From an uncultured Neisseriaceae bacterium (lineage in GTDB: Bacteria; Pseudomonadota; Gammaproteobacteria; Burkholderiales; Neisseriaceae), in assembly GCA_946481965.1 (NCBI GenBank), contig CAMLPN010000018.1, positions 1 to 39,980 on the forward strand: a stretch of 39,980 nucleotides of DNA, in the 5' to 3' direction. Made by a program: the position numbers and the translations under genes. Below the pieces are notes generated by a model. It saw only the letters and a list, made by a program, of their open reading frames with translations, did not search any database and had not been told where the DNA came from. Shown here piece by piece: positions 35,132 through 39,980 of the stretch (within the stretch, counting starts at the first letter, position 1; every line of letters begins with the position of its first letter).

Positions 35132-35926
35132 ATGATTCCGATTTTGGCTTTCGATATTGAAACAGTGCCGGATGTAGCCGGTATACGTGTGTTGAATGAT
35201 TTGCCTGATGAAGTAAGTGATAGTGAAGTAGTAGAGTTTGCCCAGCAGCAGCGTCGCGCTAAAACGGGTGGTAGTGATTTTATGCAATTGCATCTGCAAC
35301 AAGTAGTGGCGATATCCTGTTGTATGCGTTGGGGTACGGAAAAAATTCATGTTGCCAGTATTGGTAATATTGACGACACTGAAGAGACATTGATAGCGAA
35401 GTTTTTTGAGTTGGTGGAAACACATACTCCACAACTAGTTAGCTGGAATGGTGGTGGTTTTGATTTACCGGTATTGCATTATCGTGGACTGATTCACGGA
35501 ATCAGTGCGACACGATATTGGGATATGGGTGAGGGTGATTTTGGTGACAGCCGTGACTTTAAATGGAATAACTACATTAGTCGTTACCATAGCCGGCATT
35601 GTGATCTGATGGATTTGTTAGCTTTGTATCAGCCTCGCGCTAATGTGCCTTTAGATGATATGGCAAAATTATGCGGTTTCCCCGGTAAGCTGGGGATGGA
35701 CGGTAGTAAAGTCTGGAATGCCTATCATAAAGGCGATCTGGCTGATATCCGTTATTATTGTGAAACGGACGCCACTAATACTTATTTAATGTATCTGCGT
35801 TTTAATCTCATGCGTGGTTTTCTGGATGCTGATGAGTATGAACAGGAAATCCGACTTTTAAAAAGCTATCTACAAAATCAAGACGCTGCACACTGGCGAG
35901 AGTTTCTGTCAGCATGGAGTTGTTAA
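35132..35926 (+). CDS. Predicted 3'-5' exonuclease, PolB-like (DEDD fold)
   Basis: A 264-aa cytosolic protein of the family of stand-alone exonucleases related to the proofreading domain of B-family polymerases. The first catalytic acidic pair is in ILAFDIETVPD. The Exo II-like motif is LVSWNGGGFDLPVL, and the third is in YYCETDATNTYLMYLR. FGDSRDFKWNNYISRYHSRH and CDLMDLLALYQP are also family features. ATG 35132 starts at the conserved MIPILAFDIET; the frame is open to 35036 but that extension (with many Cys and aromatic residues) has no family counterpart. Its cellular role is not established. It is followed 20 bp later by tyrA. Confidence 0.88.
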   Translation: MIPILAFDIETVPDVAGIRVLNDLPDEVSDSEVVEFAQQQRRAKTGGSDFMQLHLQQVVAISCCMRWGTEKIHVASIGNIDDTEETLIAKFFELVETHTPQLVSWNGGGFDLPVLHYRGLIHGISATRYWDMGEGDFGDSRDFKWNNYISRYHSRHCDLMDLLALYQPRANVPLDDMAKLCGFPGKLGMDGSKVWNAYHKGDLADIRYYCETDATNTYLMYLRFNLMRGFLDADEYEQEIRLLKSYLQNQDAAHWREFLSAWSC

Positions 35927-35946
35927 AGTTAATGGGCTGGAAATAA

Positions 35947-36849
35947 ATGCAAAATAGAGAAGACAAATTGTCGGAGCAGTACCCAGCCATAAAATTTCGT
36001 AAACTGGTATTAATTGGCGTAGGTTTAATTGGCGGTTCACTGGCACTGGATCTTAAACGTGCAGGATTGGTTGATGAAGTTGTTGGCATCGACGTTGACA
36101 TCGAAAATCTGACCAGAGCGATGGAACGACGGGTAATTGATGGTTTCTCACTTCAGATTAATGCTGACAGTATCTGTGGTGCGGATATGATCATTATTGC
36201 TACTCCAGTGAATACTTTGCCCGATATCTGTCGAAGATTAGTTCCCTATATGGGTGAACAAACAATCATTAGTGATGTAGGTAGTACCAAACAATCGGCT
36301 TTACAAGCTTTTGCTAGTGAGTTGCCGGAGCATTTTAATCGTTGTGTAGCAGCACATCCTATTGCTGGTTCTGATCGTCATGGTGCGCTGGCGGCGCAGT
36401 TTGGATTATTTGCACAAAAAAAATGTATTATCTGTAAGCATGATCAGCAGGATGAAGTTGCATTGAGAACGGTAGTGGGAATGTGGCAGGCGGTACAAGC
36501 AAATATTTACTGGCTGGATGCAGCCAGACATGATGAGATATTTGCCGCTGTTAGCCATTTACCGCATATGCTGGCTTATGCATATATTCATCAGCTGGCC
36601 TCATGTGCAGATGCTGATGAGCTATTAAGTTTTGCTGGTAGTGGTTTCCGTGATTTTTCACGCATAGCTGCCAGCCATCCGCAAATATGGACAGATATAT
36701 GCATGTCTAACCGTGAAGCTTTAATTAAGTTGTTACAACAGCAACAGCAGGAAATAGCCTGTTTACAACGGTACTTGCAGCAAGCAGATTCAACAGCATT
36801 AGCTGACTTTTTTGATAAAGCGCATCAAATTCGGGTTAATTGGCAGTGA
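35947..36849 (+). CDS. tyrA: Prephenate dehydrogenase
   Basis: NAD(P)-dependent enzyme that converts prephenate to 4-hydroxyphenylpyruvate for tyrosine synthesis (some members act on arogenate). It is 300 aa with the dinucleotide motif LVLIGVGLIGGSLALDL, ADMIIIATPVNTLP, SDVGSTKQSA, the active-site HPIAGSDRHG, and VSHLPHMLAYA. There is no chorismate mutase domain and no C-terminal ACT domain. A GGAAAT ribosome site precedes the ATG. It may form a two-gene unit with the exonuclease gene. The separate ACT protein at 37430 is nearby, but no link is shown. Confidence 0.93.
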   Translation: MQNREDKLSEQYPAIKFRKLVLIGVGLIGGSLALDLKRAGLVDEVVGIDVDIENLTRAMERRVIDGFSLQINADSICGADMIIIATPVNTLPDICRRLVPYMGEQTIISDVGSTKQSALQAFASELPEHFNRCVAAHPIAGSDRHGALAAQFGLFAQKKCIICKHDQQDEVALRTVVGMWQAVQANIYWLDAARHDEIFAAVSHLPHMLAYAYIHQLASCADADELLSFAGSGFRDFSRIAASHPQIWTDICMSNREALIKLLQQQQQEIACLQRYLQQADSTALADFFDKAHQIRVNWQ

Positions 36850-37027
36850 AAACAAAAATTTTATTAAATTCGTTGTTTATTTGTTGCAATCGCATTATTT
36901 GTGTCTAAGTGTCAGTAAAATATGATTTTTTTTATTGATTGAAATGGTAAAATAAATAAATTTAAGCAATATTGTTTTCTTTTTAATAAAAATAACCTTT
37001 TTTTGTAGAAATAATACAAAATAATAC

Positions 37028-37056
37028 TTGCCATATTTTGTCACTTCGGGCATAAT
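37028..37056 (+). promoter_or_regulatory. Sigma-70 promoter of the candidate small RNA
   Basis: The -35 is TTGCCA (37028-37033) and the -10 is CATAAT (37051-37056), separated by exactly 17 bp. The predicted start at about 37064 is the first base of a hairpin. No protein-coding frame follows within the transcript. Confidence 0.7.
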
Positions 37057-37063
37057 TCGCTTC

Positions 37064-37152
37064 GTTAAATCAGCTACAAGTTGGTTTAACAGTTTCTCCT
37101 CTATTTCTCCTTTGTAGACTTGGCGCACACTTAATCGTGTGCGCATTTTTTT
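37064..37152 (+). ncRNA. Candidate small regulatory RNA with double anti-SD motif
   Basis: About 89 nt between a sigma-70-like promoter and a strong terminator. The 5' hairpin pairs GTTAAATCA (37064-37072) with TGGTTTAAC (37082-37090), closing a 9-nt loop. A CU-rich single-stranded stretch follows with two identical TTTCTCCT units (37093-37100 and 37104-37111). Each is complementary to AGGAGAAA, an extended Shine-Dalgarno sequence. The terminator hairpin comes last. This layout resembles anti-SD trans-acting sRNAs known in Neisseria (the NmsR/RcoF type), but I recognise no primary-sequence identity. A minus-strand frame (36895-37146) starts inside the terminator stem and is rejected as antisense. 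Confidence 0.65.
37123..37152 (+). terminator. Intrinsic terminator of the candidate sRNA
   Basis: An 8-bp GC-rich stem, GCGCACAC / GTGTGCGC, with the loop TTAATC, followed by a run of T. It is about 270 bp past the tyrA stop, so it belongs more naturally to the short transcript that starts near 37064. Confidence 0.9.
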
Positions 37153-37429
37153 ATCTTTTTTTTGTTTATTCCATAGGCATTGAAAATGATGCTATAAAGT
37201 TTACTGCCATCTAATCTGTCGGCATGATTTCAAAGGTAAAGAAGATACTTATTTAAGATTAGTACAGATTGCTATTAAGCTATTAAAGAGCACGTTTAAA
37301 AAATATTTATAGTTTTAAATACTTGGATACACAAATATAATGATTTAGATGCTTAATTAATATTATTACTATTAATAGTTGCGATTAATATGGTATTTAA
37401 TTAATTACTGGTAGATTAGGGGAGTATAA

Positions 37430-37831
37430 ATGTATGGTGAAAGTAATCTAGAGATTTTATTGCGTTCAGCTGCACCACAACATAATGTGGGCAAATATGT
37501 GTTTTGTACGGTGAAAAATATTTCAGCTGCACTACTGGCTGAGGCTGTGGCTATTGTACGAGAGGAAGAAGGCGTTACGCTCATTCTTCCTCAGGCTATA
37601 GCGGATAATCAGCAGTTAAAATATGAATATATAGCAGGCTGGATAACCTTACGAGTTCATTCTTCGCTGGCAGCGGTGGGATTAACAGCCGCTTTTTCAC
37701 AAGCATTGGCGCAACAAAATATCAGTTGTAATGTGGTGGCAGGATATTATCATGATCATATTTTTGTAGCAGAAAGTGATGTTAATCGGGCTTTGGCGAT
37801 ACTGCAAAATTTAGGGAAAGGCAATGCGTAA
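37430..37831 (+). CDS. ACT-domain protein (COG3602/DUF2241-like)
   Basis: A 133-aa cytosolic protein resembling the stand-alone tandem ACT-like proteins of COG3602. It has LEILLRSAAPQHNVGKYVFC, EEEGVTLILPQAIA, WITLRVHSSLAAVGLTAAF, SCNVVAGYYHDHIFV and ALAILQNL. Such proteins are thought to sense amino acids, but ligand and partner are unknown. GGGGAG lies upstream of ATG 37430. It is distinct from the ACT protein at 29715. Confidence 0.88.
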   Translation: MYGESNLEILLRSAAPQHNVGKYVFCTVKNISAALLAEAVAIVREEEGVTLILPQAIADNQQLKYEYIAGWITLRVHSSLAAVGLTAAFSQALAQQNISCNVVAGYYHDHIFVAESDVNRALAILQNLGKGNA

Positions 37832-38003
37832 ATGAAATCAGTTTACCTTTAAATAAGCAAGTGTTAGAAAATGCTTAGTTTCAATCTAAACCACTTAAAT
37901 GAAAGATAAGAATTTGTATAAAGAAAACATAAGATCCATAAATGGTAATCAGATTGAATACGAAAAAATTAATGTATTAATAAATTGTAAAAGGGATGGG
38001 TAA

Positions 38004-38978
38004 ATGAACTTTAAGCGTTTTTTCTATAGCTTTATTATGCTGTTATTATTAAGCTTTACGGTAAAAGCTGAAGTATTTAGTCGTCAGGATATTTCAACGA
38101 TTACTATTAGTAATAGTCCTACTAATTTTCCTAGTAGTAGTTCTGATTATAATTTTGTAAATTCTTTAAATATTAAAATAACAGCTGATTCAATTATTAT
38201 CCCTAACGGATTTTGTAATGAGAAAGAATGTTCTAGAGATGGTCCGGAAATAGAGTACCTAGGACATCATGATATTTTTAAATTTGTTCCTAAGCAATAT
38301 TTAACAGAATCAAGCTATATTAGTCCTATTACATTTAATGGTTATGGTTCGACTAAATTAGAAATTTGCATTACAGATGGTCGTTGCCATTCATGGAATT
38401 ATAAAAAGGCTTATGATGAAGAGATGATACTTTTTCATGATAAATTAAAAGAAATACTATCTGGTAAAAGTAAATATCAATTCCATTCGAAAACGGTTCC
38501 TTCAAGGCCCAAAGTAATTTTTGATAAAAAAAATTTAACATCGATTAATCTCTATCAATTAACTGCTAACCCTTTTGCTGAAGTTCTGTTATACACAATT
38601 ACTGCTGATTCAATAACTGAATATCCTTACAAAATATGTTATCTAAGTAATGGAGAACTTCAATGTGGGGTAGAAAGTGAAAGTATTCAGTATCCAGATA
38701 AATATAATATTTTTAAAGCTTTTCCAACTTTATTTTTATCTGGCTCTAATTTTATTGATCTCAGAGAATATGGCGGAGGAGATAATTATTCACCATTATT
38801 AAAAATAGAAGGTTGTTTTACTGATGGTCATTGTAATATATGGGATTTTGATGTCGTTAATCGCTATTATGATGATGTTGCTAATCGCTATCATGATAAT
38901 GAAGCAAAAGATTTCCTAAATAAAATAAAGCAACTTTATTATGATACAAGCGAAAACAATGTTGAAATAATAAGATAA
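38004..38978 (+). CDS. Exported two-domain cysteine-paired protein, unknown family
   Basis: A 324-aa protein with a signal peptide (MNFKRFFYSFIMLLLLSFTVKA). It contains two copies of one domain: copy 1 at about 25-165, copy 2 at about 170-315. Each copy has a first Cys pair (CNEKEC; CYLSNGELQC) and a second pair with TDG (CITDGRC; CFTDGHC). Copy 1 also has LGHHDIFKFVPKQYLT and ends SGKSKYQF. The same domain recurs in the next gene. An AAAGGG ribosome site precedes the ATG. Very AT-rich. The cysteines suggest disulfides in the periplasm. I do not recognise the family and give no function. Confidence 0.85.
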   Translation: MNFKRFFYSFIMLLLLSFTVKAEVFSRQDISTITISNSPTNFPSSSSDYNFVNSLNIKITADSIIIPNGFCNEKECSRDGPEIEYLGHHDIFKFVPKQYLTESSYISPITFNGYGSTKLEICITDGRCHSWNYKKAYDEEMILFHDKLKEILSGKSKYQFHSKTVPSRPKVIFDKKNLTSINLYQLTANPFAEVLLYTITADSITEYPYKICYLSNGELQCGVESESIQYPDKYNIFKAFPTLFLSGSNFIDLREYGGGDNYSPLLKIEGCFTDGHCNIWDFDVVNRYYDDVANRYHDNEAKDFLNKIKQLYYDTSENNVEIIR

Positions 38979-38997
38979 ATAGATAGAAGGAATAATA

Positions 38998-39489
38998 ATG
39001 AAAACAAAGATATTTTGGGTTTGGTTATTCGTTTTTTTCAGTTTTATTGCTAATGCAAAAATAGTCGATATTGATGATGTTGAAATTATTATCTATGATT
39101 CAAAGCCAGAAGCCCCAGTTGGAAGAATGCGCTATGAAATCGCTGAAAACTATATTATTAAATACGCAACATTAACTTGTGTTCAAAATGATAATGTTAG
39201 GCATTGTATGCCTAATGAGCCTGATAGTAAATATACCGGTCATCATAATCTTCTTCAATTAATCCCTAAAAGATATTTAACAGATGGTGACCCTTATAAT
39301 ATGAAAGAGTATGATGGATCAGGTTATAAGATTTCTATTTATTCTGATAGAATTCATCGAAGAAACTTATTTAGTTCTAATACGCCAGATCGTAAAGATA
39401 AAGATGTAGCAGAATTTTTGGATAAAATAGACCAACTTTTAGCAGGTAAAAGTGAATATCAATTTGAGCCTATTGTAGTGGATAAATAG
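38998..39489 (+). CDS. Exported single-domain paralog of the preceding protein
   Basis: A 163-aa protein with a signal peptide (MKTKIFWVWLFVFFSFIANA). Its one domain matches copy 1 of the upstream protein: TGHHNLLQLIPKRYLT versus LGHHDIFKFVPKQYLT, and LAGKSEYQF versus LSGKSKYQF. The first Cys pair is kept (CVQNDNVRHC), but at the second pair ICITDGRCHSWN aligns with ISIYSDRIHRRN, so both cysteines are replaced. AAGGA precedes the ATG, 19 bp after the previous stop, so the two genes are probably co-transcribed. Function unknown. Confidence 0.85.
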   Translation: MKTKIFWVWLFVFFSFIANAKIVDIDDVEIIIYDSKPEAPVGRMRYEIAENYIIKYATLTCVQNDNVRHCMPNEPDSKYTGHHNLLQLIPKRYLTDGDPYNMKEYDGSGYKISIYSDRIHRRNLFSSNTPDRKDKDVAEFLDKIDQLLAGKSEYQFEPIVVDK

Positions 39490-39647
39490 AGTAAACAATA
39501 TAAACTTATAGCCTTTTTTTCGGCCTTTTGATGTGTTAATAATGATCTGTACGAGAAATGCCTAAATACTGCCTGTATATTTATGTCCTAAAATAGTACA
39601 GCAAAAAATAGAAAATTCTCTATGATATTTTTAAGAAGAATTTCAAT

Positions 39648-39889
39648 ATGAAAAAATTACCCGAGCATTAAACTGTTTCTATTTAAAAGAAGCTTAGGCT
39701 AGTCTTCCGGTTAAGATCTTTGCTACAAATATGTTATCGTAGTCTCTGCTATTCTATCAATGACAGGATAATATAGCGGTATGCAATCATCGCATATTTA
39801 AGTGGTTAAAGCAGCTGGAAGCTGAAAACCATAAACTCAAACAAAATTATGCCGAATTAGGCTTAACATCTCAGCTTAGCAAGAAATAA
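39648..39889 (+). pseudogene. Decayed IS3-family orfA
   Basis: Across three frames this stretch keeps the pattern of an IS3-type OrfA. ATG 39648 opens MKKLPEH; then LKEA-ASLPVK (as in LKEAEAGLPVK), YSGMQSSHI (as in YGGMQSSDI), and finally a leucine-zipper helix, LKQLEAENHKLKQNYAEL, before a TAA at 39887-39889. At least three frame changes and several stops show it is dead. No orfB with a DDE motif or clear terminal repeats could be identified in the remaining 90 bases, so the boundaries of the element are unknown. Confidence 0.7.
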
Positions 39890-39980
39890 TATCTAAGCTA
39901 TGGTGCCAATATTCGTTCGTAACAGTTTGTAAATATCCCATAGTTAGTACACAAACCAAGTAGAAAATCATGCTATTGGT

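Follow-up and report, generated by a model that had tools for sequence, protein, structure and literature searches.

The 39,980-nucleotide stretch of DNA analysed here (the window) carries an RNA gene that, judged by its sequence, is a homolog of the NmsR RNAs and an ordinary member of that known sRNA family. Very probably its product acts in trans in Snodgrassella, the genus to which the window's genome belongs. As a sequence feature the RNA is a routine family member; less ordinary is its regulatory context, and it is mildly surprising that the RNA is intact although five of the six known meningococcal targets were not found. The original prediction was of a stand-alone sRNA gene, kin to NmsR and RcoF, that should mask ribosome-binding sites by pairing through anti-Shine-Dalgarno (anti-SD) motifs. 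A match to RF02877 (NmsRb/RcoF1/NgncR_163) supports that reading and settles whether the RNA is a homolog or an independent solution: it is a homolog, because the match is full-length, covering model positions 1-91 of 91 with 88.6 bits (gathering cut-off 52, E 6.7e-13). This match, together with conservation in related genera, confirms that the feature is real and not a product of chance.

The genome to which the window belongs (G000; the window is its contig C18) has 2,180,559 bases in 79 contigs and is 94.25% complete. Snodgrassella is known from bee guts (PMC10128065). Two genomes are treated here as presumptive sisters of G000: Snodgrassella sp. S-bin9 (G011, locus L043) and an uncultured Neisseriaceae bacterium (G013, locus L099). 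Each genome agrees with its own locus record in sequence over 400 bases to either side of the RNA's 34-nt core. All three are draft assemblies, and these two are MAGs. The term sister has no tree behind it; it is used because their TyrA proteins are the nearest to the window's among the aligned loci (78% and 74% identity, against 57-74% in the others) and because they have gene losses in common. The other labelled genomes are S. alvi wkB298 (G005), S. communis LMG 28360 (G008), S. gandavensis (G009), Snodgrassella sp. CFCC 13594 (G010) and Neisseriaceae bacterium ESL0693 (G012).

An Rfam gathering search of the whole window returned two matches, RF02877 and a 6S RNA (1940-2122, 67.2 bits), and the RF02877 match is the only one in the window's genome. 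Our own covariance model, built from 44 sequences, scores the sRNA at 97.5 bits; the next match in 35900-39980 reaches 7.1 bits (E 1.3), and no second copy or remnant was found with this model in that interval. The RNA has three stem-loops (SL1 to SL3), the last of them the terminator, and two UC-rich anti-SD regions, one in the SL1-SL2 spacer and one in the SL2 loop. It is not part of a tandem sibling pair as in Neisseria, and the Rfam score does not require such a pair. The earlier label orphan is apt for a single copy set against the Neisseria tandem pair, but not for an RNA that is widely conserved. The duplicated motif had also been held up as a contrast to Neisseria, which was mistaken: each meningococcal NmsR has two anti-SD regions (PMC5362039).

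Table 1. Features of the sRNA locus and its neighbours, in window coordinates.
Feature	Coordinates	Strand	Details
Predicted promoter	37028..37056	+	-35 TTGCCA 37028-37033, 17-nt spacer, -10 CATAAT 37051-37056
NmsR-family sRNA gene	37062..37150	+	RF02877, full model length
SL1, 12-bp hairpin	37064..37090	+	37064-37075 pairs with 37079-37090; folding, covariation
34-nt core AGTTTCTCCTCTATTTCTCCTTTGTAGACTTGGC	37091..37124	+	Identical across genera (exact search)
Anti-SD motif 1 TTTCTCCT	37093..37100	+	Between SL1 and SL2; last T is first base of SL2 5' arm
SL2, 5-bp hairpin	37100..37118	+	37100-37104 pairs with 37114-37118
Anti-SD motif 2 TTTCTCCT	37104..37111	+	SL2 loop; first T is last base of SL2 5' arm
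SL3 intrinsic terminator and U-tail	37123..37152	+	GC-rich stem 37123-37130 with 37137-37144; T7 37146-37152
tyrA (prephenate dehydrogenase family), upstream neighbour	35947..36849	+	NCBIfam best E 5.6e-81, all matches to prephenate dehydrogenase models below curated cut-offs
133-aa protein gene, downstream neighbour	37430..37831	+	No NCBIfam match

The predicted -35/-10 pair with 17-bp spacing can be read directly in the sequence, as can the two TTTCTCCT copies, spaced 11 nt start to start, and the GC-rich terminator that follows them. The promoter pattern is not commoner than in shuffles (two sites in 1.1 kb, 4.8 expected), and by itself the promoter match does not exceed chance. Over the 40 bases 5' of the RNA, identity to nine further Snodgrassella loci is 65-90%, and GCATAATTCGCT in the promoter region is invariant in all ten aligned loci; the alignment covers ten of the 13 genomes with the RNA, leaving out G004, G010 and G012. 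Three terminator-like sites were found against 0.7 expected; two are readings of the SL3 stem, and the remaining one corresponds to the first hairpin. The latter had been put at 9 bp, and folding extends it to 12. The CU-rich stretch, described beforehand as single-stranded, is so only in part: its second motif forms part of the loop of the SL2 hairpin. The RNA as a whole folds with -29.1 kcal/mol (z -6.4), a value equalled by none of 200 shuffles.

Is the structure maintained by selection on pairing? Covariation was assessed in 44 sequences taken from 67 distinct ones among 130 copies, all chosen by the exact core. That core and SL2 do not vary in this alignment therefore follows from the choice itself, SL2 lying inside the core, and the covariation result concerns SL1 and SL3, which the choice does not affect. 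SL1 and SL3 covary strongly. Changes on both sides occur in 15 of 22 pairs (shuffled mean 12.5, reached by 9 of 500 shuffles); such changes affect 10 of the 11 modelled pairs of SL1 and 5 of the 6 in SL3. The both-sides-changed cells number 166 against 52.9 in shuffles, and the covariation score is 0.558 against 0.257; neither value was reached in 500 shuffles. Paired cells make up 94.6%, and at most 46.4% when the pairing is slid.

A separate observation concerns sibling NmsR copies within one genome. Their terminator arms have a mean identity of 0.91 (15 pairs) against 0.69 between genomes (96 pairs), while the identity of SL1 is 0.59 within and 0.57 between genomes. The comparison used exact-core copies only, at loci L002, L003, L030, L032, L037, L039, L040, L051 and L057; L032 and L040, which are closely related to L030, do not enter the between-genome pairs. 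From these sequences the 3' half of NmsR looks to be evolving in concert, with SL1 free.

The RNA is widespread in relatives. The covariance search across Neisseriaceae that had been called for was positive in 74 of 83 family genomes at E<=0.001, with 71 over the cut-off under stricter filters; five misses fall among the 71 good genomes, and five of all nine misses belong to a single genus (g9, seven genomes). Within Snodgrassella, RF02877 is present in 13 of 14 genomes, the sole miss (G007) being 60% complete. All 13 positive genomes contain the exact 34-nt core; G010 and G012 have two copies and the other 11 have one. A sample of 399 genomes of the order gave 56 positives at E<=0.001 and 30 over the cut-off, and none of the 14 control genomes had a match. 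The exact core occurs in 75 genome_contigs stretches from Snodgrassella, Neisseria, Stenoxybacter, Chromobacterium, Aquitalea, Vogesella, Crenobacter, Pseudogulbenkiania and others. It is also present in every one of the 40 loci retrieved with the Rfam model, a set made up of the highest scorers.

Which mRNAs does such an RNA control? In an E. coli reporter, meningococcal NmsR represses six: prpB, prpC, sdhC, gltA, sucC and fumC (PMC5362039). Mutation of either anti-SD region abolishes the repression of five of the six, gltA requiring the second only (PMC5362039). The same paper reports that NmsR is controlled by RelA and the stringent response and that regulation of sdhC and fumC is not seen in meningococci themselves, and it leaves the role of Hfq open (PMC5362039). 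Binding of the sRNAs by Hfq has been reported in both Neisseria species (PMC9973317). Gonococcal targets lie in amino-acid uptake and in serine/glycine metabolism (PMC9973317; PMC13104608).

Most of this target set was not found here. Searches of the window's genome for the citrate synthase family, SdhC/D, PrpB and the SucC domain gave no match. The citrate synthase family search would presumably cover prpC beside gltA. Only fumC was found, with a start region that matches the core over 7 nt, and the outcome in G011 and G013 is the same for all these genes. The missing target set is a difference of regulon, not of RNA. On contig C1 of G000 the match to mdh runs up to 57802 and that to sucA-sucB-lpd starts at 59688 (L204 7803-9689); the gltA, sdhBADC and GntR-like genes of the reference genome G001 are absent from between them. 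The gltA-sdh loss is thus a deletion inside one contig and not only a matter of missing contigs. The arrangement is the same on contig C6 of G013, and in G011 the flanks lie on different contigs. No convincing gltA or sdh residue was found in the 1.9-kb gap (23% GC). In the G000/G013 lineage the TCA cycle lacks both citrate synthase and succinate dehydrogenase; G011 is likewise without a gltA or sdhC match.

Elsewhere in the genus the targets are retained to varying extents. In G010, which has two copies of the RNA, core matches in start regions extend over 12 nt for sdhC, 11 for prpB, 10 for sucC and 7 for gltA. Both gltA and sdhC are present in G001-G006, G008 and G009, with matches to the core of 6 and 7 nt, and in G012, also with two copies, with matches of 5 and 6 nt. 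PrpB or SucC over the cut-off was found in none of G001-G006, G008, G009 and G012. The order of loss events in the genus is one that we infer. ESL0693 (G012) has been reported to have a complete TCA cycle (PMC10128065); fumC and SucC over the cut-off were not found in it. In G010 (L136, L137, L237), a second citrate-synthase-family gene beside prpB, and fumC, each consist of two overlapping out-of-frame pieces, which are either frameshifts or assembly errors.

The genome-wide target prediction proposed beforehand was run on 622 start regions, drawn from 799,598 of 2,180,559 bases (37% of the window's genome), and gave no excess over a control of 300 sequences that keep both CTCCT cores with the other letters shuffled. 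Complementarity to the core of at least 8 nt was found in 16 of the 622 (control mean 19.3), of at least 9 nt in 5 (5.9) and of at least 10 nt in 1 (1.9). The arrangement AGGAGAAA-N2-9-ATG occurs 10 times in the window's genome against 8 for a backward control; in eleven other genomes at least 94% complete, AGGAGAAA near ATG occurs 18-31 times against 2-9, but there AGGAG would in any case be favoured ahead of ATG. The low count in the window's genome is not explained by gene losses, because G013, which has these losses in common with it, has 20 against 4.

The best single match, 14 perfect nt before a LacY-type permease (L205), was set aside because the origin of its contig is uncertain. This 4-kb contig (G000:C75:1-4004) encodes an arabinofuranosidase (ArfA model over the cut-off), the permease and a second probable glycosidase, a label of ours for a weak NCBIfam match; it may be misbinned, and its tetranucleotide usage ranks 19 of 98 and is not an outlier. 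Shorter matches at MetE and at an amino-acid ABC binding protein (9 nt each) and at an RpoE-like sigma factor (8 nt) do not exceed what chance would give and were rejected. In six of the seven genomes read (G001-G006) the ribosome site of succinyl-CoA:acetate CoA-transferase contains AAGGAGAAA, a match of 9 nt; the window's genome, with 7 nt, is the sole exception. The fragments of this enzyme that were read match NCBIfam succinate/acetate CoA-transferase models below full-length cut-offs. In S. alvi the enzyme functions within the TCA cycle (PMC9768450). A urea transporter (TIGR03441, 264.7 bits, cut-off 274.6) was read in three genomes and has matches of 11 nt in G001, 10 nt in G006 and 9 nt in that of the window, at sites picked by the motif itself. 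Matches of at least 8 nt at the Snodgrassella sites are built in, since these were picked by AGGAGAAA. Pairing sites may move to enzymes that replace lost targets, for example the CoA-transferase standing in for SucCD.

Is the RNA, then, a relic that is fading after the loss of its TCA targets? The absence of gltA, sdhC, sucC, prpB and prpC from what was found in the genome, the want of a second copy and the unenriched start regions would all agree with this. However, between the two sisters and the window the core is identical in 34 of 34 positions, SL1 in 93% and SL3 in 96%, against 33% for the downstream DNA and 60-62% upstream, and promoter- and terminator-like sequences are retained. L043 and L099 were found via the exact core, yet neither G011 nor G013 has any RF02877 copy besides these, and both were re-read from those genomes. 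Selection thus appears still to act on both anti-SD motifs, and a fading relic is unlikely.

The neighbourhood bears on whether the RNA works in trans. A tyrA match lies 5' of the RNA in every fetched Snodgrassella locus but one; the exception, L060, extends no more than 327 bases upstream of the core. At loci of other genera the window's TyrA is unmatched within the fetched flanks, which span 1.5 kb at most loci from L011 to L040 and as much as about 8 kb elsewhere, and as a query in genome_contigs it found no relative. Within these flanks the genomic surroundings change between genera and the RNA stays. A role in cis, as leader or attenuator for the gene of the 133-aa protein, which we take to be ACT-like, would suit a gene that starts on the same strand 279 nt downstream of the RNA; it is highly improbable, as the terminator precedes that gene and the protein is unmatched in the fetched downstream flanks of L002, L003 and L008, of the same genus, and in those of all loci from other genera. 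An independent origin, with convergence on an NmsR-like form, would account for neighbours that, within the fetched flanks, differ from those of other genera, but is scarcely credible beside a full-length covariance-model match, the same order of elements and an identical 34-nt core.

As a trans-acting NmsR-family sRNA, the RNA would be transcribed from about 37062-37064 and, by analogy with Neisseria, might be assisted by Hfq. Its CU-rich stretches would pair with the Shine-Dalgarno regions of several mRNAs and block ribosome entry, and the translation and stability of these targets would be lowered. The TCA and methylcitrate part of the regulon would be largely gone here, and other mRNAs would keep the RNA conserved; on the gonococcal model these may belong to amino-acid uptake and serine/glycine/one-carbon metabolism. 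Other targets probably maintain the RNA in the window's lineage, because the core is identical in the sisters while the downstream DNA stands at 33%, and the known targets were not found. The fuller proposal, that the regulon has been exchanged under an unchanged RNA, NmsR having outlived its TCA-cycle and methylcitrate targets and being kept by other mRNAs, is offered tentatively and leans towards doubt.

How does the locus compare with known systems? NmsRB/RcoF1/NgncR_163 of N. meningitidis and N. gonorrhoeae is alike in length, three stem-loops, U-tail and intergenic gene, and two anti-SD regions per RNA are normal anatomy for the family (PMC5362039). In contrast to NmsRB, the window RNA is single copy and lies downstream of tyrA, its SL1 and SL3 differ in sequence with pairing kept, and five of the six reporter-shown meningococcal targets are not found beside it. 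The sibling NmsRA/NgncR_162 has the same architecture and targets in common in Neisseria (PMC5362039, PMC9973317); the window's genome has no such sibling, whereas G010 and G012 each have two copies, with a distance between the cores of 305 nt in G010 and 284 nt in G012. Double-hairpin RNAs of Burkholderia cenocepacia were likened to NmsRs by their authors for structural similarity (PMC5688073). Those RNAs are not in tandem and occur in up to five copies across the genome (PMC5688073). Among the matches listed for open-licence literature, titles and abstracts, neither an NmsR RNA in Snodgrassella nor a Snodgrassella lineage without citrate synthase is treated.

The three related genomes amount to a natural experiment: they keep the targeting core letter for letter, with most of the known direct targets gone. 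This helps to tell which NmsR targets are under selection and which merely gave the regulon its name, in a genus whose host community is simple and well studied.
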